This document shows, in pieces, positions 15,572 to 37,128 of a DNA stretch of 53,579 nt. The notes beneath the pieces were generated by a model that saw only the letters and a list, made by a program, of their open reading frames with translations, had not been told where the DNA came from and searched no databases. The translations under genes and the position numbers were made by a program. Position 1 is the first letter of the stretch. Each line of letters opens with the position of its first letter. The stretch is from a virus, in the IMG/VR virus record IMGVR_UViG_3300032086_004496, positions 1-53,579 of that record, one strand, 5' to 3'.

Positions 15572-16042
15572 ATGTCAAATATTCTAAAAATTAGAGTTAC
15601 TCTGTTAAGTATTTTAGCACTTGTTGGTGCAATATCTATACATTATTATGTCAAGGCAGAAAACTTATATAAAGTTATAGTACCAAAACAAACAACATAT
15701 TATACTCCTGGGCAGCACGACAACTGCAAATGGGTTGTTCATATAAGTAATGATGTCACCACAGAGCCGGGATCTAATTCTCCAATACAAATTGGAATAC
15801 CCGAAGTTTCAAAGGATGGGTACATAGCGGGAATATTACAAAATAGTCCAGGTGACGCCTTGTTATTGGCATTTAAGTTACCATCTCAATCAAGTAGTAG
15901 CCCGCCAGTTGTTATGACACATGTTTATGACAAGAGTAAATTACCAATTAGACAAGGCAGATTCCGTGTGTATGGAAGTTCACTGCTAACAATGGTTCTT
16001 TATAATAGCTATGAATCCTGCATAGAGGCTTCTATGAAATGA
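15572..16042 (+). CDS. Membrane-anchored or exported protein, unknown function
   Basis: The 156-residue protein has a strong RBS (AAGGAGGGG) and one hydrophobic N-terminal segment (LLSILALVGAISIHYYV, residues 11-27), so it is secreted or anchored. Two later Cys residues (DNCKWVV and YESCIEA) could form a disulfide. It overlaps the MopE-like lipoprotein gene by 4 bases. Confidence 0.7.
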   Translation: MSNILKIRVTLLSILALVGAISIHYYVKAENLYKVIVPKQTTYYTPGQHDNCKWVVHISNDVTTEPGSNSPIQIGIPEVSKDGYIAGILQNSPGDALLLAFKLPSQSSSSPPVVMTHVYDKSKLPIRQGRFRVYGSSLLTMVLYNSYESCIEASMK

Positions 16043-17289
16043 AAAGTTTATTTGTCTTCTTACTCCTACTTTTTGCTGTAGGTTGTGAAGAAGATAGACT
16101 TGTAAAGCTAGAATGCGTTCTTGGCGACAAACTCGTTTGTAATGAGTTTGGACAGAATTTTCCAGCCGTTGATCCAGCCGACATTCCAGAGAGAACAGGT
16201 CAATGTTCTTATGGAACGAGAACCTGCACAATAAACGGTTGGGGAGAATGCAAGGGAGCAAAAGGACCAGAAGAAGAGGTTTGTGATGGGATTGATAATG
16301 ATTGTGATATGACAATCGATGAAACCTATCCAGAAGAACATCAACTTTGTGGGTTCCAAGAAAATATAGATTATGGAGTTGGCATCTGCAAACCAGGTGT
16401 TATGACCTGTTATAATGGTGTCTTATATTGCGACGGGCATACAGGACCCGCTGATGAAATCTGTGATGGTGTTGATAATAACTGCAATGGAACTGTTGAT
16501 GAGGGGATTGCCAATGCTACAGCGGTTGCCTGCTATGAAGGACCTGAAGGAACTCTAGCAGTTGGTGAGTGCCGAGCAGGTATTCGCTATTGCACTGACG
16601 GCAACTTTGGTGGACCTTGTGATGGCCAGGTTTTGCCAACTGCTGAAAGATGTGATGACCTTGATAATGATTGCGACGGAGAAGTCGATGAAGGCTTTGA
16701 TACTCGTGGTGTAGATTTGGTTTTTGTCCTCGATATTTCTGGTTCCTTTGATGACGAGATAGAGTCAATGATTTTGGGCATAACTCCGCTTTTAGACGAC
16801 CCGATAACGAGCAGATTTCGATTTGGACTAGTTGTTGTAGGTGCTAGGCAGGGTGAAGACATAAGACCACATAATCTATACTCTAGAATGGTCTCTGATT
16901 TTGTTCCCGCTGATGAGTTCGTGGCGATACTGGAAGCAGGCAGAATGATTGATAGTGCTGGGCAAGAGCCAACCATTGATACGATGTATTGGACAATGAA
17001 CAGGTACCCATTTTCGTGGAGACCAGAAGCACAAAAAGTTGTTATCACAATGACTGACGAAATAGCCCAGACAATCACTTCAATGACCTGTCTAGAAGTA
17101 GCAACCCATGCTGACAATTATGGATATGAGTTATTTGTATTTGCTCTACAAGAGCATCATAGGAGTTTCTTAGATTGTGTCAGCGGAGACAGGGACAGGC
17201 TCTATACGCCAACTGCTAATTCAGAGACTATCTTTTCCCAGATCAGGCAAATCTTTGACGACCTCTGTGTTAGCGGTAGAGGCAACTGA
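16039..17289 (+). CDS. MopE-repeat and von Willebrand A domain lipoprotein
   Basis: The 416-residue protein has a lipoprotein signal (LLLLFAVGC, Cys16). Three MopE-type repeats follow (CDGIDNDCDMTIDE, CDGVDNNCNGTVDE, CDDLDNDCDGEVDE), each preceded by Cys-rich spacers. A C-terminal vWA domain begins near residue 225 with a MIDAS motif (VFVLDISGSFDDE). MopE repeats are typical of surface proteins in Myxococcota and relatives. It would sit on the host envelope and bind a ligand or metal. It ends inside the convergent gene at 17221-17529. Confidence 0.88.
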   Translation: MKSLFVFLLLLFAVGCEEDRLVKLECVLGDKLVCNEFGQNFPAVDPADIPERTGQCSYGTRTCTINGWGECKGAKGPEEEVCDGIDNDCDMTIDETYPEEHQLCGFQENIDYGVGICKPGVMTCYNGVLYCDGHTGPADEICDGVDNNCNGTVDEGIANATAVACYEGPEGTLAVGECRAGIRYCTDGNFGGPCDGQVLPTAERCDDLDNDCDGEVDEGFDTRGVDLVFVLDISGSFDDEIESMILGITPLLDDPITSRFRFGLVVVGARQGEDIRPHNLYSRMVSDFVPADEFVAILEAGRMIDSAGQEPTIDTMYWTMNRYPFSWRPEAQKVVITMTDEIAQTITSMTCLEVATHADNYGYELFVFALQEHHRSFLDCVSGDRDRLYTPTANSETIFSQIRQIFDDLCVSGRGN

Positions 17290-19840: not shown

Positions 19841-19918
19841 TGGTAGGGGACCAGAGACTTGAACTCTGAACCTACCGATTATGAGTCGGTTGCTCTAACC
19901 AATTGAGCTAATCCCCCT
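19841..19918 (-). tRNA. tRNA with CAT anticodon, probably tRNA-Ile2
   Basis: This 78-base tRNA has anticodon loop CTCATAA and an encoded CCA. CAT can mean Met or, after lysidine modification of C34, Ile for ATA codons. The anticodon stem (ACCGA/TCGGT) shares its three loop-side pairs with E. coli tRNA-Ile2 rather than with elongator Met. The TilS-like gene ends exactly at its first base (stop TAA at 19918-19920). Both points favour Ile2. Elongator Met remains possible. Confidence 0.85.
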
Positions 19919-20523
19919 TAGTATAATAAATTATATTCCCTTTCTACCATTTTTTTAAATGTTTTTTCGATACCTTTATTTACCTTGCGTGCATGAGGCA
20001 TCATATCGTTTCTGATAATGCTTCTCATAAACTTTCTGTCTGTGTTCCCTGGATCAACCATGAACGGCACTTCTTTACGATTACACCAATCTTCTAGAGC
20101 ATTCTTAGAAGTAGAGATAAAAGGTCTAATTACGTTTTGATTCCTATAAGGCATAAGTCTGCCATGACCATGTAGGGAAGAAAACAAAAACCACTCAATC
20201 ACGTCGTCTAAGTTATGTCCTGTAATAACTTGCTCATGAAATGTTCGAAAGAACTTATACCGCTCATCTCGCCAATGTTCTTCTAAAGATTTTTCGGAGG
20301 GACAATCAAAATAAATGTTACCCACCACCAAAGGAATGTCACGTTCTTGACAAAAATCTTTTACAAAATATTTACAATCTTCTCCAAACGATGTGCCATG
20401 GTCAAAATAGGCAGCAGTTACTTTGTGGTTGTTAGATAAGAAATCTAAGATCGCCATGGAATCTGGTCCACCGCTGACAGCAACAACCAGTTCTCTTGGT
20501 AGCTTTCCTAAAACTCTCAACAT
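19918..20523 (-). CDS. tilS: tRNA(Ile)-lysidine synthase core, TilS-like
   Basis: The start is the ATG at 20523 with RBS AAGGAG. A longer frame would run into tRNA-Arg. The 201-residue protein has the PP-loop VVAVSGGPDSMAILD (SGGPDS at residues 17-22), then AAYFDHGT and ITGHNLDDVIEWFLF. The later conserved region is RPFISTSKNALEDWC and FMRSIIRND. TilS adds lysine to C34 of tRNA-Ile(CAT) so it reads ATA. Bacterial TilS is usually longer, with extra C-terminal domains, so this is a minimal catalytic core. It lies between tRNA-Arg and the CAT tRNA. Confidence 0.88.
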   Translation of the reverse strand: MLRVLGKLPRELVVAVSGGPDSMAILDFLSNNHKVTAAYFDHGTSFGEDCKYFVKDFCQERDIPLVVGNIYFDCPSEKSLEEHWRDERYKFFRTFHEQVITGHNLDDVIEWFLFSSLHGHGRLMPYRNQNVIRPFISTSKNALEDWCNRKEVPFMVDPGNTDRKFMRSIIRNDMMPHARKVNKGIEKTFKKMVEREYNLLY

Positions 20524-20533
20524 CACAACTCCT

Positions 20534-20610
<77 letters not shown>

Positions 20611-24719: not shown

Positions 24720-26660
24720 TCAACTATCACGCCATAGATTGTTAGCAGCGAACTTTATGACCTCTTCTGCTGAATTTTCATCATATTCATACTCATCGAT
24801 CAGCGTTTTAACCATTTCATTGTATTTTACTTGTTGTTTTTTGTCTCTAGACTTAGATTTGGTCACAATTCGTGAAATTTGCTTGACTGAAGAGGTCAAT
24901 TTGCTCTCAATTGCCTCTTTGAGTGGTGCATATGACTGCCAATCCACTTTTTCGCCTCTTCGGAGCTTAGAAAACATAAAAGCAGTGATGTCAACTCTAA
25001 AATTCTCCTTCGAAGTGCCCGTAATCCCAATTTGTTCCTCGATAGATGCCATAAAAGCTTCATCTGGCTGTATTTCTTCGTTTGTAACAGCATCTTTCAC
25101 TGTTGACATGTTGACATACGCCTCAGCATGGTCCAAATAGTTATTAAAAAGGGCTTCGGCTTGCTCTTCATAAGCAGACACAAAAGCTTTTGTTATTTCT
25201 TTCTCTAAAATGTTCAAATATTCGTCATGAAGTGTCTTTCCAAGGAAATCTAAGTAGCGATTTCTGTCATCTTCGACAACTATCTGTTCTTTTACTTGCT
25301 TTATCAATGCATCACGTATCGAAATTGGAGTTACCATGTTCTTATCACTATCAGACATAGCAGAATCAATGGCTTTCATAATAAAGCGAGTAGAGATACC
25401 TGTCATACCTTCATCTCTAGCCTCATCTCTTAGATCGTTGATGTCTATTTTCTTTACTGTCCCTTTTTCTATGACGTCTTTACCATCATAGAGCTTCATT
25501 TTAGTAAGCGGGTCAACTTTATTTGAAGGATGAAGCCTACTTAGGACCGCAAACATAGAAGCGATCTCCAGAGTATGAGGTGCTATGTGACCATCAAAAT
25601 CAGATAAGCCCAACATCTTCTCATAAATCTTCTGCTCTTGAGAAACCTCTAGACAATAGGGCACGTTAACCCTAACGATTCTATCAAGAATAGCTTCATT
25701 GGTATTTTCAGATTTAAATTTATTCCACTCAGCCTCATTGCAGTGTGCCAAGATGACGCCATCAAAATATATCATGGGTCCTTTGCCTGGAGAGGGTACA
25801 GCTTTTTCCTGTGTTGCAGTAATCATTGTGTGCAAGAACTCAATCTCGTTTTTGAACACCTCCACAAACTCAACAATTCCACGATTACCAACATTAAAAG
25901 CACCATTTAGAGAAAGTACTCTGGGGTCGTCCTCAGAATACATGTCTAATTTTGAAATGTCCTCACTGCCAACTAATATTGTAACATCTTGGCTATTTGC
26001 GTCCATTGGAGGAACGACACCAACTCCTCGCCTACCTCTTACAGAAAAGGAAGATTGTGCGATAGGAAATTTTGTATAGTCATTGTCGAATTCTTCTTTC
26101 AATCTAAATCGACATACAGGACAAAGATCACCTTCAATCTTGATATTATAAATATCTTGAAATTCCTCCCTTAGCGATCTAGGGATCAGGTGCAAAGGCT
26201 CCTCATTTATTGGGCAGCCATCAATATGATACATCGGTTCGCAATCTTCAAGAGCCGACTTGATGTGTTCCAGGAGTGCAGATTTTCCAGCGCCAACTGG
26301 ACCCAGCAAAAGAAGAACCTGACGGCTTTCTTCGCCCTTGAGGGAGGCAGATCTCAAAAATCTCATGACCTTTGCCAGAGATCTTTCCATGCCAAAAAAC
26401 TTGCTTTGGAAATAATCGTAAGTTCTTAATTCATCTCCAGAAAATAATTTATTACATCTTTCTTCTGACTTGTTCATTCTAGTCATACCTTTTGAAGATA
26501 TAACGTCAAACAATCTTTTGTGAGCCAACTTAGGTATTGTTGGGTCTTTTTCAATTAGTTTCAAATATTCTTGCAGAGTTCCAGAAAACTTAGGCTTCTT
26601 TTTTTGCTCTCTATGTTTTCCTACTAGTTTTAGGAACTTATCTGACTTATTGTTCGACAT
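24720..26660 (-). CDS. prkA: PrkA-type AAA+ serine kinase
   Basis: The 646-residue protein is close to the length of E. coli YeaG. It carries the PrkA AAA domain with Walker A LLLGPVGAGKSALLEHIK, SLREEFQDIYNIKIEGDLCP and the family signature NRGIVEFVEVFKNEIEFLHT, plus a C-terminal helical region. PrkA is a stress- and sporulation-linked kinase or AAA+ protease partner. It follows SpoVR-like with a 3-base gap and forms the last gene of the three-gene module. Confidence 0.94.
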   Translation of the reverse strand: MSNNKSDKFLKLVGKHREQKKKPKFSGTLQEYLKLIEKDPTIPKLAHKRLFDVISSKGMTRMNKSEERCNKLFSGDELRTYDYFQSKFFGMERSLAKVMRFLRSASLKGEESRQVLLLLGPVGAGKSALLEHIKSALEDCEPMYHIDGCPINEEPLHLIPRSLREEFQDIYNIKIEGDLCPVCRFRLKEEFDNDYTKFPIAQSSFSVRGRRGVGVVPPMDANSQDVTILVGSEDISKLDMYSEDDPRVLSLNGAFNVGNRGIVEFVEVFKNEIEFLHTMITATQEKAVPSPGKGPMIYFDGVILAHCNEAEWNKFKSENTNEAILDRIVRVNVPYCLEVSQEQKIYEKMLGLSDFDGHIAPHTLEIASMFAVLSRLHPSNKVDPLTKMKLYDGKDVIEKGTVKKIDINDLRDEARDEGMTGISTRFIMKAIDSAMSDSDKNMVTPISIRDALIKQVKEQIVVEDDRNRYLDFLGKTLHDEYLNILEKEITKAFVSAYEEQAEALFNNYLDHAEAYVNMSTVKDAVTNEEIQPDEAFMASIEEQIGITGTSKENFRVDITAFMFSKLRRGEKVDWQSYAPLKEAIESKLTSSVKQISRIVTKSKSRDKKQQVKYNEMVKTLIDEYEYDENSAEEVIKFAANNLWRDS

Positions 26661-26663
26661 AAC

Positions 26664-27980
26664 TTAAAACTCCCAAGATTCGTCTTCTATTATTGTAGTA
26701 AATCTTACCTCACCTACCCATAAATCGTTAATGTGTTCAAAGACTTTATTAGCTTCTGAAAGTTCTAAGTCTCTGCCATCGTGTTCATGTTCAAGTATTA
26801 GCGTTCCGTCTTTTTTCATTTCCTTTACCAAAACAACTGGAACGCCATTAAGACCCACATTCTTAATTAGGTCGTCCCGAACTGTTTGCCATCCAGAGTC
26901 GTCAGAAATATTTTTTATCGTATTGTAGCCATCTTTTGTATTGAAAGAATAACTAAACAAATTTAGCTCTTTACACAATTCTTCGTTGAGGTAAGTTTTT
27001 ATAAACGTTTCATCGTTATGTGTCTCTCTGACTCTGAGACACTCATTAAAACCCATGTGCTCTTCGATATACTTAAATATCTTAAACCCCAAGTGATATG
27101 GGTTTACTCTTCCCAAATGCGGTCTGACAACTTGATTGTGCAAGCGTATGAATGAAAGAAAATAATCATCTGGGATACCGAGAGAGTTTACAATTTTTTC
27201 ATGTATCATACAAGCCCAGCCCTCATTCATTATTTTGGTGTTAGCTTGTGGGACAAGATACAGAGATTCATGTTCTACAATCCTTATTAGATCCCTCTCC
27301 CATTCCTCTAGAAATCTGTTATTGTCAGCAATGAATCTAAGAAGGTTAGAATCTGGCTCCAGTGGTATTTTGTTTAGGTCAAAGTCATCATACTTTCCAG
27401 TAGTGTCGTTGACCATAAGTTGTTTGTAATACTCTTTAAGTTTTTTATGGTCCCTTCGTTTTATGCCAGGCGATCTTGGGACCTGAAATTTGATTGAATG
27501 GCAAGCATCCAAAATTCTTTCTACGTTCTCAACTCCAATGTTCGGGTCTTCCATATATTTCTTGACCCTTTTAGCAGCAGACTTAAATCTATCAATAACA
27601 GTGTCTGCACCAGTCTCAGCGAACATCCTGTTGTTCTTAAAGAAGTCACTATGACCCACACAATGTGCCATTGTCAATATGTGTGTTGGCATTGGATTTT
27701 CGGTCATAAGATATGAGATACTGGGGTTTGAATTTATGATCATTTCATACGGCAAACCAGACATACCAAGATTGTACTCAGTTTGTATACGATCAAAAGA
27801 TTTACCATAGGACCAGTGTCTATAATGAGTCGGCAAGCCAGTATATGCCATGTGACCAATCATCTCCTTATAGTCACATATTTCATAATCAATTGGATAC
27901 CAATCTAATCCTAGAGCTTCTCCAATATTACAAATTTTTTCATCCCACTCTTGGAGTTCTTCCATCGACCAATCAGACAT
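26664..27980 (-). CDS. spoVR: SpoVR family protein
   Basis: The 438-residue protein has the SpoVR/YcgB signature: WYPIDYEICDYKEMIGHMAY near the N-terminus, PTHYRHWSYGKSF, GMSGLPYEMIINSNPSISYL, MTMAHCVGHSDFFKNN-type text and NPYHLGFKIFKYIEE. SpoVR proteins are tied to spore cortex and to stress survival, with unknown biochemistry. Its start shares one base with the YhbH stop. It forms a module with PrkA and YhbH, as in bacterial chromosomes. Confidence 0.94.
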   Translation of the reverse strand: MSDWSMEELQEWDEKICNIGEALGLDWYPIDYEICDYKEMIGHMAYTGLPTHYRHWSYGKSFDRIQTEYNLGMSGLPYEMIINSNPSISYLMTENPMPTHILTMAHCVGHSDFFKNNRMFAETGADTVIDRFKSAAKRVKKYMEDPNIGVENVERILDACHSIKFQVPRSPGIKRRDHKKLKEYYKQLMVNDTTGKYDDFDLNKIPLEPDSNLLRFIADNNRFLEEWERDLIRIVEHESLYLVPQANTKIMNEGWACMIHEKIVNSLGIPDDYFLSFIRLHNQVVRPHLGRVNPYHLGFKIFKYIEEHMGFNECLRVRETHNDETFIKTYLNEELCKELNLFSYSFNTKDGYNTIKNISDDSGWQTVRDDLIKNVGLNGVPVVLVKEMKKDGTLILEHEHDGRDLELSEANKVFEHINDLWVGEVRFTTIIEDESWEF

Positions 27981-29170
27981 CAGGTTTTACCTCCAAACAA
28001 TTTCTTAAATGCTGGCCAAATATGATTATGTTCTTCTAAGCGAATGCGTTTGAAGTTTTTATCCTCAACTAGTTTTGTCCAGTCCCACAATCTTTTTTCC
28101 GAGCTTCCACCAAACAACGAGTACTCGCTGTATTTGTGAAGTCTTCCTATCTCAGTGTAACACATAACTTGATTCACTTCTTTCAGTCTTCTAAAGGCGG
28201 CTAGTGCCTCCTTGTTATCGATTGACCAGTTATCGCCATCGCCGCAGTAAAAAGTATATATGTTCCAGTTGTTTGGGTGATAACGTTTCTCAATAATCTC
28301 TTCTACTTTTTTCAAACCAGTAGAAACCAAAGTGCCTCCATTTGGAACCTTAGTAAAGAATTGCTCTTCGTTGACCTCACTAGCATCAGCGGTATGAGAA
28401 ACAAAGATAACATCAACAGAAGAATATTTGTGATTTATAAATTGGTACAAGAGAAAGAAGAAACTTCTTGCAAGAAACTTTTTTGACTTTGTCATAGAGC
28501 CAGAAACATCCATCACAAAAAATACAACTGCTGCTGTATTCTCTTTTACTACTGGCGCAATGTGCTTATACCGTAGATCACTCTCGTGAAAAGTAAAGCG
28601 ATCCCCACTTTCAGGATCATAGGCACCAGATTTTATAGCTGCCTTTTTTCTTCTAATCTTTTGCTTTATAGTTTCTTTTTTAGAAAGGCGAGGTCTAATT
28701 CCATAAGGTCTCTTACCTTTGCGTTTCATTTTTTCTTGAGTTGTAAACTTGAAGTTTTTCTTTTCTAATTCTGGAAGTTCTAAATCATTGAATAGGTAGC
28801 CAGCCAACTCTTCAAGGGACATCTCAATTTCATACATTTCCTCACCTGGCTTATTGCCAGCTTTTTCTGGATCTCCTTGTCCCGTTCTTGGCTTTCGCCT
28901 GTGACCTATTCTTTGCCCTTCTCTGACCTGCTTTCCTTCAGCAGATCCTACTCTTTTATTATTTTCGTTTTGACCATAAACAAACTGGTGCTCTTTGATT
29001 CCTTTTACAGGAATCCTTATTTTCTTTTTTCCGCTTTGTCCGATAATACTTTCTTCGGCGACAACGTCCCGAATACTTTCTTTTATTGCTTTTTCAATTT
29101 TTTCTCGGTGACGAGATCTGTCACTCGCCGCTCGATCTGCAATAGTTTTATGTTCTCGGAAAATACTCAT
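27980..29170 (-). CDS. yhbH: YhbH/YeaH (DUF444) vWA protein
   Basis: The 396-residue protein is similar in length to B. subtilis YhbH. The N-terminus has SDRSRHREKIEKAIKESIRD and IPVKGIKEHQFVYG. The C-terminal vWA domain has MIDAS VVFFVMDVSGSMTKSKK, then VISFVSHTADA-like, GGTLVSTGLKKVEEII and YTFYCGDGDNW. YhbH is the usual partner of PrkA. This is the first gene of the module and lies 28 bases after the leader-peptide genes. Confidence 0.93.
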   Translation of the reverse strand: MSIFREHKTIADRAASDRSRHREKIEKAIKESIRDVVAEESIIGQSGKKKIRIPVKGIKEHQFVYGQNENNKRVGSAEGKQVREGQRIGHRRKPRTGQGDPEKAGNKPGEEMYEIEMSLEELAGYLFNDLELPELEKKNFKFTTQEKMKRKGKRPYGIRPRLSKKETIKQKIRRKKAAIKSGAYDPESGDRFTFHESDLRYKHIAPVVKENTAAVVFFVMDVSGSMTKSKKFLARSFFFLLYQFINHKYSSVDVIFVSHTADASEVNEEQFFTKVPNGGTLVSTGLKKVEEIIEKRYHPNNWNIYTFYCGDGDNWSIDNKEALAAFRRLKEVNQVMCYTEIGRLHKYSEYSLFGGSSEKRLWDWTKLVEDKNFKRIRLEEHNHIWPAFKKLFGGKT

Positions 29171-29198
29171 ATTAATATAAGTAGTTTCTACGAGCTAC

Positions 29199-29498
29199 TT
29201 ACGCTAACGTAAGTTCGCTAAGATCAACTTCAGCGGGTGTGTCTGTTCCATCAACATCCACAACAGCGTAGCCTGGCTCAGTAGAAAATCTGTCCATCTC
29301 TACTTTCATAATAACACCAGACATTGGCATTCTTTCATAGTCTACTTTTTGTCTTCCACTTGGAGTCGTCTTGACGATTTTCTTCAGTTCGCTCCATTCA
29401 ACTCTTTTACCAGGTTTGAAATCCTGCTCCATGCGGTATTCCTTAAGGATCTCTTCCTTGATAATCTTTCGTAGCAGTTGTTTTGTAATTTTAGTCAT
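29199..29498 (-). CDS. Small protein with capsid-targeting-like leader
   Basis: The 99-residue protein begins MTKITKQLLRKIIKEEILKE, an amphipathic helix shared with neighbouring proteins. The rest is a beta-rich domain (MSGVIMKVEMDRFS, YAVVDVDGTDTPAEVDLSEL) that may be an SH3-like barrel. It overlaps the upstream gene by 4 bases. Possibly a packaged protein. Confidence 0.65.
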   Translation of the reverse strand: MTKITKQLLRKIIKEEILKEYRMEQDFKPGKRVEWSELKKIVKTTPSGRQKVDYERMPMSGVIMKVEMDRFSTEPGYAVVDVDGTDTPAEVDLSELTLA

Positions 29499-29929
29499 CT
29501 ATTTACTGCTCCCTTACCACCTGGTCTTCCCAAACCTCCATAGTTGTATTTAAAGGGCTTCGTGGCTTTAGCCTTCGACACCTTCCTTTCTATACCCCGT
29601 GTTTTATCCATTTCATCATGAGTTGGACGGCGGAGCTTCCCATCGGCACCCAACAAAGGTTCGCCGAGTCGGGTCTCCCACCGTTTCAGTTTTGTATTAT
29701 AATCAACTTGCTCAGGGTACCCATGGCGATAGCCAACATTTTTTTCGTTAGGCTCTGCCCCAGGAGGCAATTTATATAAGTTGCTTTTCTCTGGGTCATT
29801 GATGTAGGATAAACTTGACAGAGAGCCATCGCCCTTTAGTTCTGGTCTAGCAGATGCAAATCTTTCAGAGACAAAATTTTGGACCTCTTCTTTGATGATC
29901 TGTCGTAGTTGTGTTTTTGTGATTTTCAT
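29495..29929 (-). CDS. Protein with capsid-targeting-like leader, unknown function
   Basis: The 144-residue protein starts MKITKTQLRQIIKEEVQNFV, then a largely unstructured, Pro-, Gly- and Lys-rich body ending YNYGGLGRPGGKGAVNR. No domain is recognised. It directly follows the ART-like gene. The conserved leader suggests delivery into the capsid. Confidence 0.62.
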   Translation of the reverse strand: MKITKTQLRQIIKEEVQNFVSERFASARPELKGDGSLSSLSYINDPEKSNLYKLPPGAEPNEKNVGYRHGYPEQVDYNTKLKRWETRLGEPLLGADGKLRRPTHDEMDKTRGIERKVSKAKATKPFKYNYGGLGRPGGKGAVNR

Positions 29930-31033
29930 TTATTGATCCCCGTGGTTTTGCTTGTAAACCTGATTTAAATAGGCTTCAAAATCTGCTAGTGTCTTTTTCT
30001 TTGTACTCCGCATAAGTGAGGCGAGCAACTCCAGAGTGTCACGAGCCCCAGGGTTAGAACTGATAGTATGAAGGTCGCTATCAATACCCCTATGATAACG
30101 ACCAGCAGGAGTAGGTATTCCCTGAGTTATGTTTCTGAAGACTTCCGCAGCATATCTTCTGCGCTCATCCTCATCTCTGTATTTTATTTTGCCCTTTACA
30201 TTTGCTCCCTCAAAACTCTTCTTGCCAGCAAGAATATCCTGAGCGGCTTGGACATAAAGGAACACTTCGTCCTCGCCAATCTCACCTCTTGGTCCTTGAT
30301 CCGCTGACTTGTACATACTTCTGTCAATCGGTTCACCAACCTCTTTGCCAACTTTTTGCAGGAGTTCTTTGAAATCAGATAGACTAGTCAGTGCTTTCTT
30401 TTTGCCGACCTCAACAAGAGGCCAAGTTTCTTTACTGGTGTGAATGTAGTAAGGAATGTTTCTTTGTTCTGCTACCGCTACTGCTTCTTCCAAGGCAGTC
30501 ATTTCACCTGCTCTTATTTCACCAGAGGTTACTCTTTTCGTTGGCTTGTCGTCAAACATTCCCTTCCTAATCTCAAACACTGGAATAGCAAAATGTATTT
30601 CGTCAATGTATCGGTCAGCATCTTCAATATAAGGTTCGTCTAGAAGCAGTCTATCTTCTGCCTCAAAACCTTCGGACGCTCCTGGGTCACTCGGAACGTT
30701 GGCTGCTCTTTTTGATGACCGCTTTGACGTTGCCCAATAATCCAGGGGAACTGCCTTATATTTTTGACCCAAAGCACGACCATCTAATTTGAAGATGACG
30801 CCTTGCGGGTAAGTACCCGTAAAAGAATTTGATGGTGTTCTTGCGGTAGAAAAATAATAAAGTTTACCCTTACCAAGTTCTGACTCAACTTCTTTAGAAA
30901 AGCCACCTGACGCTAGGAACCTATTATCTTCAAGAATCTTGGCACCTTTTTCCATGCCACCTGTGTAGTGATACACGACATCGGTGATGCCTTCCTTCAG
31001 AAACTTACGCCATTGCTCAAATAAAAGTTTCAT
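29930..31033 (-). CDS. ADP-ribosyltransferase-like protein with leader peptide
   Basis: The 367-residue protein has leader MKLLFEQWRKFLKEG. An ART-like domain follows: VVYHYTGGMEKGAKIL (His22-Tyr-Thr), LYYFSTARTP (61-65), GVIFKLDGRAL, and EGFEAEDRLL (Glu124-Glu126-Asp127) before RYIDEIHFAIP. This HYT, Ser-turn and EAEDRL pattern fits the H-Y-E clade of NAD-dependent transferases or RNA phosphotransferase-like proteins. About 200 further residues are unassigned. T4 Alt is a known injected ART, so an effector role is plausible. Confidence 0.7.
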   Translation of the reverse strand: MKLLFEQWRKFLKEGITDVVYHYTGGMEKGAKILEDNRFLASGGFSKEVESELGKGKLYYFSTARTPSNSFTGTYPQGVIFKLDGRALGQKYKAVPLDYWATSKRSSKRAANVPSDPGASEGFEAEDRLLLDEPYIEDADRYIDEIHFAIPVFEIRKGMFDDKPTKRVTSGEIRAGEMTALEEAVAVAEQRNIPYYIHTSKETWPLVEVGKKKALTSLSDFKELLQKVGKEVGEPIDRSMYKSADQGPRGEIGEDEVFLYVQAAQDILAGKKSFEGANVKGKIKYRDEDERRRYAAEVFRNITQGIPTPAGRYHRGIDSDLHTISSNPGARDTLELLASLMRSTKKKTLADFEAYLNQVYKQNHGDQ

Positions 31034-31045
31034 ATCTTATTTAGT

Positions 31046-31870
31046 TCACCTGTCGGATATATCTAATATTTCTATAGGGGTTACAATAAATTCATTCCAT
31101 AGTGACGTTCTTAGTTCTCCATTGCAATCATTTTCTAGGTCGGTGCATAGATTATCTTTGTCATCTCCTGGATAACCTAGTCTGTGTAGGTTTACACATT
31201 TTCTGTTATTACTAACAGAATAAGATTTTACATCACTACGAAACCCTGCTCGCACATTACCTCTAAATTCCATTATCTTATTTGACTTCGATCGAAAGAA
31301 TGGACGCTCAGCAACTGTGTAGGCAGATATATCAAAAGGATCACCAGAGTCTATAGCTCTCTGTATGCGATCAATTCCCTCTTGGTGGGTGTAGTGGTAT
31401 AAAATCTTTGGATTATCAACAGAGCCATAAACCTGCATTGTAAATGCATCATCAATTAAAACATATGGCTCAAGATCACCACGAGAATAAAAGTAAGCAA
31501 AACGCAGTTCGGACATGTCTTCAAAGAATTGTCCAAACTGCTTTTCTAAAGACCAGTATCGATGATTAGCAAAATCCTCAATGTGGTCAAGAACATTTTT
31601 ACTTGTAAGTAGATCATATCGTTCTACATCGACAGACAATTGAAAACCATAGAACTCTTCTACAAGATCTACCAACTCTTGTGGTCCTATTAGTTTTCCG
31701 TGGCTGTGGCTAACGTAGTGTCCGTTTTTTTGGAAAGCCAAAATCTTGTTCACGAACTCTTCCCATTCGGACAGAGTATGAAACGCATTTTCTGGTTTTA
31801 TGTATCCATGTACATATATCTTTTTTATCTCTTCACTTAGGAAGTTCTTCCATCGTCTAATGTACGACAT
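31046..31870 (-). CDS. Second ART-like protein with leader peptide
   Basis: The 274-residue protein begins MSYIRRWKNFLSEEIKK, a leader like that of its neighbour. The C-terminal half reads ILYHYTHQEGIDRIQRAI (158-170), then FRSKSNKIMEFRGNVRAGF and TSLWNEFIVTPIEIL (256-269), a putative H-Y-T and Glu pair. The N-terminal half is helical and unrecognised. NAD binding is a guess from the HYT start. Confidence 0.55.
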   Translation of the reverse strand: MSYIRRWKNFLSEEIKKIYVHGYIKPENAFHTLSEWEEFVNKILAFQKNGHYVSHSHGKLIGPQELVDLVEEFYGFQLSVDVERYDLLTSKNVLDHIEDFANHRYWSLEKQFGQFFEDMSELRFAYFYSRGDLEPYVLIDDAFTMQVYGSVDNPKILYHYTHQEGIDRIQRAIDSGDPFDISAYTVAERPFFRSKSNKIMEFRGNVRAGFRSDVKSYSVSNNRKCVNLHRLGYPGDDKDNLCTDLENDCNGELRTSLWNEFIVTPIEILDISDR

Positions 31871-31872
31871 AC

Positions 31873-32076
31873 TCAGTCAGTCCCTGGTGGTGCAGACTTT
31901 CCAGGCTTAGAAGCCTTGTTAGAAAAAGGCGGCGTGTTTTTATTTCCGCCAGAGCTTACCTTCTTAATCATAGAGGTAAACGTTCCTCGTGCATATTTTT
32001 GAAACTGCCCTTCGGCAGCAGCCTCTATGATGACATCACGAATTATTTGTCGCAGATGTTCCATTTTGATTTTCAT
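31873..32076 (-). CDS. Small basic protein with leader peptide
   Basis: The 67-residue protein starts MKIKMEHLRQIIRDVIIEAA and ends in a disordered basic tail (NKNTPPFSNKASKPGKSAPP). The leader matches the KIIKEE-type helix. It overlaps the start of the small GTG gene by 41 bases. Confidence 0.6.
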   Translation of the reverse strand: MKIKMEHLRQIIRDVIIEAAAEGQFQKYARGTFTSMIKKVSSGGNKNTPPFSNKASKPGKSAPPGTD

Positions 32077-34454: not shown

Positions 34455-35684
34455 TCAAGCGTCGATTGCGATCACCTTCTCGTTGGTCTTGAAGTAAGGA
34501 CGGCTGGCACCACGCTGGTCAGTCATCCACATCCGTTGAGCCTTGCAAGCCTTAGGCTTGGGAGCTTCCATATCCGTCAGGATAATGACGCCGTCAAAGT
34601 TATTATCATTGACGTACTTGGTGGGAGCATCAAAGCAGGTTCCCCCGCAGAGAACTCGCTCAGCCTTCTGGCTCTTGCCCTTCTTCCAAATGTAGATCTT
34701 GCTTTCATCAACGCTGGTATCGAAGGGAACCACCGTGAACTCTGCAAGCTTAGCAAGGCTATTCAGTTCGCTGAAGAAAGCTGACAGCATCTCATCACTC
34801 ACGCTACCAGACTGGTCAATAGCAATGGCAATCTTTGCTTGTCGCTGAACCTTCTTGCCTGGGTGAATGTAGGCATACCGCTTGTTGATCCGCTTGACAC
34901 TGGATCGACGGCTAGCACGCTGGCTGGTCTTGATGAAGTACCTGAGCACTTTGCGCCAGTCTACCTTACTCTCTAGCTTACTTAGAATATCTTTCTTTAG
35001 TTCCCCAGAGATCGAGCCCCAGCCCTTAGGAGACTGGCTAGCTTCTTTGGCAGCATCCTTCATTGCATTCTTCAGGCGTTCCTTTGCCATCTGGTTGGCA
35101 GCCTGCTGTTGAGGATCATCACCACCGCCTGCATCGTTGTGACCACTGTGATCATCAAACTGACCAGGCAGGTTCTCACCCTCACCATCACCAGACTCAT
35201 CGCCGTCACCCTCTTTACCAGAAGGTTGCTTTTTCTTTTCCAGCTTGCCCTGCCGCTTGAGTTCTTTCAAGTACCACTCAGCCGTTTGGAACAAGGGCAG
35301 GTCTTCGTAAGGAGTATCCTTCTGACCTGGCATACAGACCCAATCAGGAAGCTCACCTTGGAGGTGGCTGTTGATAGCCAGGTCCTGACAGATGTTCCAG
35401 ACCAAGTGGCTAACACCCTCAGCCTTATTACGGCTGGTAACGTGATCGAAGATCAAGTGGTAGAACTCGTGCTTGAGCACACCACGGATCTGCTCATCAG
35501 GCAGTGTAGCCAGGTTCTCTGGATTGTAGAACATTTCGAACTGAGCAGTGTCAGGGTTGACACCGACAGCAGCCCACTTGATGCTGCGATCCTCACGCTT
35601 CTCTACTCGACGGCTGAGAGCCGCAAAGAACGGCTCGTCCATCAGCAAGCGATAAGCATGGAGTTTCAGGTCAAAGCTCATCAT
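34455..35684 (-). CDS. DUF2201-type vWA protein with HExxH-like motif
   Basis: The 409-residue protein has an N-terminal metallopeptidase-like region with HEFYH at residues 72-76. A low-complexity acidic linker follows (about 155-200). A C-terminal vWA-like domain contains KIAIAIDQSGSVSDEM, a MIDAS-type DxSGS. This fits the DUF2201 family, which pairs with MoxR ATPases. The MoxR gene lies at 36088. RBS GAGGGAGAG before ATGATG. It has its own early-type promoter. Confidence 0.85.
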   Translation of the reverse strand: MMSFDLKLHAYRLLMDEPFFAALSRRVEKREDRSIKWAAVGVNPDTAQFEMFYNPENLATLPDEQIRGVLKHEFYHLIFDHVTSRNKAEGVSHLVWNICQDLAINSHLQGELPDWVCMPGQKDTPYEDLPLFQTAEWYLKELKRQGKLEKKKQPSGKEGDGDESGDGEGENLPGQFDDHSGHNDAGGGDDPQQQAANQMAKERLKNAMKDAAKEASQSPKGWGSISGELKKDILSKLESKVDWRKVLRYFIKTSQRASRRSSVKRINKRYAYIHPGKKVQRQAKIAIAIDQSGSVSDEMLSAFFSELNSLAKLAEFTVVPFDTSVDESKIYIWKKGKSQKAERVLCGGTCFDAPTKYVNDNNFDGVIILTDMEAPKPKACKAQRMWMTDQRGASRPYFKTNEKVIAIDA

Positions 35685-36087: not shown

Positions 36088-37128
36088 TTAGGCTCCCAGG
36101 ATTTTGGAGAGGTGGCTGCCGACAGCCCCTTCGTTAGCGCCGTGGAACCGCACGACGTTTTCTTGGACACCAGACTGGCTGATGACTCCCCAGAGCTTCA
36201 TGGCAGCTTCTGAGGGCAGCATGACGAAGTAGTTAGCCAGGTTGCTCAGGTGCTCATCACTGATCTCAGCCTTGAGAACTTCTTCAGCCTCGACCTTCTC
36301 GATCAGAGCGCAGTGTTCATTCAGGGAGAAGGCAGCCAGAGCTTCTTGACGTTCCCCGTTGAGGAGTTGCTCAACCGTTACTACCCGCTCGTAGTTCTGA
36401 GCGAAGTCATTGAGAGCAACCGCAGCTTCAAAGCCGACGAAGCTCTGAGCAAGGTTGAACATCGGAGCACCAGCCTCCAAAGCTTCAGCTTGCTTGAGAA
36501 CCTTGTCAAGGCGATCCCAGCTACGACGGCTAGGGTAGCGCTTGTTCGGCTCGATATCACCAGCATGTTCGAGGTGGTTGCGATTCTGGTTGATGAAATC
36601 CCAGATGAGACCATCAACATTTTGCTTAGCCCATGAGAGCCAGTCTTCTACCGTAGGCTCGATGTCCCAGACTGACCAGCGGTCAAGCTCAGCAGGATCC
36701 ATCTCATTCACTTGGTACTGCTCACCATGCTCACCGCCGTTGACGGCAGCGAAGATCAGCGTATCTTCATGAAGGTGGTGACCATTCAGCTTGCGGCTGT
36801 CGGTCAACTCAAAGATTCCTTGCCGAACTTCTAGGGTAGCTCGGTCAACCTCATCCAGGAAAAGCACAACAGGCTCTTCACATGCCTGCTTGAACCAGTC
36901 TGGCGGATTGAAGCTGGTACGATTGCCTTCCACACTGGGAAGACCAACAAGGTCACCCTCAGTCATTTGGCTGGCACGACGCTCAACTACGGGCAAGCCC
37001 GCATTGGCAGCCAATTGATAAACAACCTGGCTCTTCCCAATCCCGTGGCGACCACGGAGAAGAACAGGCAAACGAGCAGCACTAACAGCAGGTGCTAAGC
37101 TGACAAAGGTTTTGAAGTCTACCGACAT
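36088..37128 (-). CDS. MoxR-family AAA+ ATPase
   Basis: The 346-residue protein has Walker A RGRHGIGKSQVVYQ, GDLVGLPSVEG, Walker B VVLFLDEVDRA and ELTDSRKLNGH. That is the MoxR pattern of a chaperone AAA+. MoxR proteins work with vWA partners to activate or remodel metal-binding targets, and the partner here is DUF2201 downstream. It has its own promoter with a leader identical to that at 22082. Confidence 0.9.
   Translation of the reverse strand: MSVDFKTFVSLAPAVSAARLPVLLRGRHGIGKSQVVYQLAANAGLPVVERRASQMTEGDLVGLPSVEGNRTSFNPPDWFKQACEEPVVLFLDEVDRATLEVRQGIFELTDSRKLNGHHLHEDTLIFAAVNGGEHGEQYQVNEMDPAELDRWSVWDIEPTVEDWLSWAKQNVDGLIWDFINQNRNHLEHAGDIEPNKRYPSRRSWDRLDKVLKQAEALEAGAPMFNLAQSFVGFEAAVALNDFAQNYERVVTVEQLLNGERQEALAAFSLNEHCALIEKVEAEEVLKAEISDEHLSNLANYFVMLPSEAAMKLWGVISQSGVQENVVRFHGANEGAVGSHLSKILGA

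Follow-up and report, generated by a model that had tools for sequence, protein, structure and literature searches.

An intact YhbH-SpoVR-PrkA gene trio in T4-type phages neighbours head genes and a GroEL-like gene

PrkA, YhbH and SpoVR are encoded by a widespread bacterial operon whose molecular job is unsettled, and the literature on bacterial PrkA is in conflict, with sporulation, stress, kinase and protease claims. What would an intact set of the three genes do in a phage? The question is raised by a linear virus contig of 53,579 bases (IMG/VR record IMGVR_UViG_3300032086_004496), analysed at its full length and called the window below, whose initial annotation, made from the sequence alone, proposed that the trio may reprogramme dormancy, the envelope or other features of the host. 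We find the trio to be an intact, rearranged phage unit near capsid and chaperonin genes, a testable lead that points to protein remodelling or folding. The literature covered, outside of which most subscription papers lie, gave no earlier account of the three genes as a unit close to capsid genes.

The three genes and their protein families

All three genes lie on the minus strand of the window and run in the transcription order YhbH>SpoVR>PrkA: a YhbH/YeaH-type protein (DUF444; positions 27980 to 29170, 396 aa) with a von Willebrand A (VWA) domain; a SpoVR family protein (26664 to 27980, 438 aa); and a PrkA-type AAA+ protein (24720 to 26660, 646 aa) with an AAA_PrkA and a PrkA C-terminal domain. 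The lengths, the coordinates and the near absence of spacing given in the initial annotation were exact, with a 1-bp overlap between YhbH and SpoVR and a 3-bp gap between SpoVR and PrkA. Its family assignments were borne out by Pfam, where every domain scored above its gathering cut-off: DUF444 with 347.9 bits (E=1e-103, cut-off 27), SpoVR with 406 bits (E=2e-121, cut-off 27), SpoVR_C with 32.8 bits (E=7e-8, cut-off 27.6), AAA_PrkA (PF08298) with 475.6 bits (E=1e-142) and the PrkA C-terminal domain (PF06798) with 265.1 bits (E=9e-79, cut-off 25). Alignments agreed for all three proteins, PrkA has one solved relative (9xip), and PHROGs already has phage families for each of the three, without function. 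Against the NCBIfam equivalogs, PrkA scored 403 bits with PRK15455 (YeaG; cut-off 576), SpoVR 283 bits with PRK11767 (YcgB; cut-off 679) and YhbH 369.9 bits with TIGR02877 (spore_yhbH; cut-off 467.95), each below the cut-off. Judged by its sequence scores, the window PrkA is thus a member of the family and no YeaG ortholog.

The Walker A motif of PrkA, GPVGAGKS, is invariant save for one A/S position in an alignment of 11 diverse phage proteins. In YhbH the MIDAS is intact, its residues D221, S223, S225, T280 and D311 being invariant among 49 aligned phage and Clostridia sequences, and in SpoVR the same holds for H55, E79, H106, H110, E253, H260 and H281 among 48; from the HxxxH motif of SpoVR the Glu that is usually catalytic is missing. 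Purifying selection on the trio is strong (pN 0.04-0.15 versus pS 0.58-0.90, the pS values being mostly saturated). The VWA domain is present in the AF2 model of YhbH (pLDDT 72), and its fold matches include the MIDAS of Rea1/MDN1 and NorD, two proteins that belong to AAA+ machines. The SpoVR model (pLDDT 86) had no significant match among PDB folds, and we therefore assign no enzyme class to SpoVR.

Phage nature of the contig

The window had been called a phage-like genome, and its phage nature stands: it comes from a virus record, the same trio is found in many phage contigs of up to 293 kb, and its gene content is of phage type, with ThyX, PhoH, a phage-type exonuclease, DNA methyltransferases, glycosyltransferases, a TilS-type enzyme, a tmRNA and five tRNAs. 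A host-chromosome fragment or a misassembly is ruled out on these grounds. The flanking DNA did not prove to be bacterial, nor is the trio absent elsewhere and identical to a host copy, the two outcomes that the initial annotation had set against its own reading.

Within the 53.6-kb window fragment we recognised neither a capsid nor a terminase gene. A Gp23-type major capsid protein is encoded by 19 of the 37 large trio-bearing relatives, and its nearest cultured kin are those of Flavobacterium phage immuto, Microcystis phage Mel-JY01 and Rhodothermus phage RM378. With the trio proteins as queries, immuto, Mel-JY01 and RM378 gave no match; as the Flavobacterium immuto phages have no detectable trio, it must be dispensable for T4-type heads generally.

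Distribution and gene order

Scans of viral contigs returned 152 relatives with PrkA as the query and 122 with SpoVR, or 421 with a SpoVR alignment. The loci retrieved include 153 with the trio, which reduce to 107 distinct phage loci and show the co-occurrence in other phages for which the initial annotation had proposed a search; L001, entered in reverse, is the window. The order is YhbH-SpoVR-PrkA on a single strand in all 153. Bacterial operons, by contrast, had the order PrkA-YhbH-SpoVR wherever sampled (76 Clostridia loci and loci from Bdellovibrionota, Pseudomonadota and Thermomicrobium), which the window trio does not match. Phage trio and bacterial operon (that of Clostridia; yeaG-yeaH and ycgB in E. 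coli) are alike in having all three proteins with full domains, Walker A, MIDAS and SpoVR histidines; the phage version differs in its permuted order, its separate monophyletic lineage and its virion-gene and chaperonin context. In two loci (L128 and L133) the YhbH ORF has only 245 aa, possibly through a frameshift or sequencing error, and SpoVR and PrkA are full length. The record of Enterobacter phage LAU1 (L164) opens with a complete host-type yeaG-yeaH, apparently flanking chromosome.

Other phages carry the system too. Thermus phages (phiYS40, TMA, MN1, Lalka8 and phiLo) share the order YhbH(VWA)-SpoVR-PrkA with the T4-type clade but are of separate origin, with PrkA ~32% identical and SpoVR highly diverged, and in phiYS40, unlike in the T4-type trio, a further ORF separates SpoVR from PrkA. 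In Lalka8 the trio has a minor head gene on one side and, beyond two small genes, that of the terminase large subunit (TerL) on the other. Uncultured huge phages (LR745206, LR756504 and others; 595-642 kb) and the Ralstonia jumbo phage RsoM2USA, for which SpoVR and PrkA have been listed (PMC8504454), likewise encode PrkA with SpoVR and/or YhbH; they differ in having the bacterial order where checked, that is, in three huge-phage loci with all three genes, and a PrkA that falls within Pseudomonadota or with Bdellovibrionota.

Phylogeny and origin

The T4-type phages group as a single clade in the trees of all three proteins, with support of 99 in a wide tree and 100/99 in a careful tree for PrkA, 100 for SpoVR and 96 for YhbH; the trees therefore contain what the initial annotation had named as support, an independent clade of phages with the intact trio. 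The sister group of the T4-type PrkA is Clostridia. The nearest non-phage PrkA are those of Clostridia at just 57-59% identity, which rules out recent host capture, followed by Bdellovibrionota (34-38%) and Pseudomonadota (32-36%). Three PrkA from MAGs, nominally bacterial and 64-65% identical, were rejected as host copies, having the phage gene order, PhoH nearby and a position nested in the phage clade; their contigs (L167, NHDW01000006.1, of 305,838 bases; L166; L168) probably come from phages and were binned with bacteria, in MAGs named Methylococcaceae, Legionellales and Halobacteriovorax.

Huge-phage PrkA were found nested within Pseudomonadota in three cases and beside Bdellovibrionota in one. 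Approximately unbiased (AU) tests rejected grouping of the T4-type clade (working label 'marine', taken from MAG matches and published viromes) with Thermus phages (p=1e-7, the Thermus group having long branches) or with huge phages (p=7e-12). These rejections and the PrkA tree placements together indicate at least four acquisitions of the system by phages, and the YhbH-SpoVR-PrkA order apparently arose twice. Since bacteria other than Bacillota, Pseudomonadota and Bdellovibrionota are thinly sampled in the trees, the donor may be other than Clostridia.

Head genes and a GroEL-like gene next to the trio

ORFs within 9 kb of the trio were clustered over the 107 distinct loci. In 23 of these a head-gene array lies directly upstream, in the order scaffold-like protein (328 aa, weak match to phrog_206), major head protein (phrog_138, E=8e-71), 422-aa connector-like protein matching the head-tail adaptor phrog_211, a protein of 289 aa and one of 275-309 aa, and then YhbH-SpoVR-PrkA. 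Where gene calls resolve the array, ~100 bp follow the capsid gene and later gaps are mostly of 11 bp or less.

The strongest neighbour cluster, at face value plain GroEL, resolved into a true GroEL near the trio on the opposite strand (8 loci) and a diverged GroEL-like gene less than 2 kb downstream of PrkA (43 loci other than those with the array). The GroEL-like proteins, of ~440-460 aa (for example L048:11942-13306 and L071:12242-13591), match GroEL structures as a profile (E=4e-38), and all 20 of the 20 compared have lost the ATPase motifs DGTTT, D52 and D398. The clade thus resembles phages that encode GroEL, most of its large contigs also having a true GroEL elsewhere, full or partial, with matches to GroEL or GroEL-like proteins in 31 of 36; it differs from them in that the gene next to the trio is diverged and without the ATPase residues.

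Neither head nor GroEL neighbours are present in the DNA available for 33 of the 107 loci, among them 12 that bear the motif described below; contigs of the capsid relatives are nearly all short. Because each context is inherited within one clade, the independent context events are few, ~4.

Leader genes and a promoter-like motif in the window subgroup

Virion-like leader genes had been noted directly upstream of the trio, and they are there: a run of genes at 29199 to 32076 encodes proteins with similar N-terminal leaders, such as MKITKTQLRQIIKEE and MSYIRRWKNFLSEE, of the pattern MKITKxxLRxIIKEE / WRKFLxE, which resemble the head-targeting sequences of T4-type internal proteins. On the minus strand and directly upstream of YhbH is the gene of a 99-aa protein with the head-targeting-like leader MTKITKQLLRKIIKEEI (29199 to 29498), whose family is upstream in 11 loci. 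Further from YhbH, on the same strand, come genes for proteins of 144 aa (29495 to 29929, leader MKITKTQLRQIIKEEV), 367 aa (29930 to 31033, leader MKLLFEQWRKFLKE), 274 aa (31046 to 31870, leader MSYIRRWKNFLSEE) and 67 aa (31873 to 32076, leader MKIKMEHLRQIIRDVIIE); a relative (G003) has a homologue of the 367-aa protein at the same place and also one of the 274-aa protein. Those of the leader proteins that were compared with Pfam and PHROGs had no match for their bodies.

Between this run and YhbH, 14 bp upstream of the YhbH start, lies the promoter-like motif AAACTACTTATA (29176 to 29187, minus strand). In the 12 loci of the window subgroup the motif AACTAYTTA stands just before YhbH, usually with a small leader-protein gene directly upstream. 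Two relatives of 190 and 172 kb contain 26 copies, of which the coding strand has 25, where ~2-3 per strand would be expected, and in relatives the motif precedes tail-tube, connector-like, spanin-like and leader-protein genes. A looser form precedes 18 of 103 YhbH starts, compared with 2.4 in shuffles, and none of the 103 SpoVR starts. From this pattern of occurrence we propose AACTAYTTA-type motifs as putative late promoters. The T4 consensus late promoter TATAAATA was ruled out as a common signal, as it precedes just 2 of the 103 YhbH genes.

Proposed role in virion assembly and alternatives

Head genes, a chaperonin relative, a motif common to virion genes and the Lalka8 neighbourhood all point to virion production. 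The head-array, GroEL-like and motif contexts therefore indicate a late role in virion assembly or proteostasis, which we take to be the better reading, at about an even chance, and leave a dormancy or sporulation reading, and with it the host reprogramming of the initial annotation, unsupported. The T4 capsid depends on GroEL for its folding, and a role in proteostasis is therefore plausible in phages that also carry GroEL. In its general form, to which we incline slightly, our proposal is that the trio would be a phage-owned, late-expressed AAA+ remodelling machine for folding, quality control or assembly of virion proteins, most likely those of head or neck; in this, whatever goes beyond genome context, mechanism and late expression included, we infer from sequence.

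By analogy, PrkA may form an ATP-driven ring, and YhbH, through its MIDAS/VWA domain, could be its adaptor or substrate handler, as are the VWA partners in NorQ-NorD and Rea1/Midasin. The likeness to these systems is an AAA+ ATPase paired with a MIDAS/VWA protein, here drawn from operon linkage and fold resemblance; PrkA differs in belonging to another AAA+ family with its own C-terminal domain, and SpoVR has no counterpart there. SpoVR might be a metal-binding client or enzyme that is loaded or activated by PrkA and YhbH. The machine would act on fresh structural proteins along with the GroEL that the phage itself encodes, and the ATPase-dead GroEL-like protein could be a further partner in one subgroup. 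A narrower version, possible but distinctly more tentative, has the trio (with that partner in the one subgroup) as a dedicated machine for capsid and neck assembly and quality control, which T4-type and Thermus phages would have acquired independently of each other. If true, this would be the first biochemical job assigned to SpoVR-YhbH-PrkA, and a virion-assembly chaperone unlike the known phage chaperonins.

Host reprogramming, in which the phage would boost or mimic the stress, stationary-phase or sporulation programme of its host so that the infected cell stays alive or dormant, is the weaker reading and seems rather unlikely to us. It sits badly with a trio found in head-gene arrays (23 loci), next to a GroEL-like gene (43) or, in the window subgroup, behind leader genes and a motif common to virion genes. 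Moreover, the phage copy is Clostridia-like, yet the capsid kin infect Flavobacterium, Microcystis and Rhodothermus, which to our knowledge form no endospores. Its appeal comes from bacterial homologues that act in sporulation and stress, namely B. anthracis PrkA (PMC13001217) and E. coli YeaG, the latter in nitrogen starvation (PMC4664914), and from an oxygen-minimum-zone virome study that reported viral spoVR as a 'sporulation' auxiliary gene (PMC8940887); viral spoVR so counted in ocean viromes may instead be a virion-assembly gene. Late-type placement would also fit proteolysis or remodelling directed at host proteins or envelope, dismantled to free resources or aid lysis, as would the AACTAYTTA motif before a spanin-like gene in one relative (G016) and the ATP-dependent protease activity reported for B. 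subtilis PrkA, according to its citation in PMC13001217. We nevertheless consider this improbable, because purified B. anthracis PrkA was found to have no protease activity (PMC13001217) and the linkage is to head and chaperonin-like genes, with no consistent lysis-gene linkage.

The head-targeting-like leaders of the immediate window neighbours might suggest that the trio proteins, too, travel inside the virion and come into play when the next infection starts; however, YhbH, SpoVR and PrkA have no such leader and their N-termini align with bacterial homologues, and we give the idea very little weight. AAA+ proteins occur in defence and counter-defence, but a role of the trio against a bacterial anti-phage system is hardly to be believed, as YhbH, SpoVR and PrkA had no PADLOC match, and neither their conservation over a wide phage clade nor their late-type placement suits a host-specific arms race.

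Other genes in the window

A second AAA+/VWA pair is encoded on the minus strand of the window, by a MoxR-type AAA_5 ATPase gene (34455 to 35684) and one for a DUF2201 metallopeptidase-VWA protein (36088 to 37128), and this pair is also kept in the relative G003 (L330). On the plus strand, opposite to most genes, positions 16039 to 17289 encode a secreted lipoprotein-like protein that has a VWA domain as well as MopE metal-binding repeats; MopE repeats are common in Myxococcota-like bacteria, and the protein may be a hint at the host. A minus-strand tRNA with anticodon CAT (19841 to 19917) adjoins a gene for a TilS-like lysidine synthetase (19918 to 20568, minus strand), and for that reason this 'tRNA-Met' may be a TilS-modified tRNA-Ile. 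The phage tmRNA (9994 to 10317, minus strand) has the tag peptide ANDDFQLAQAA.
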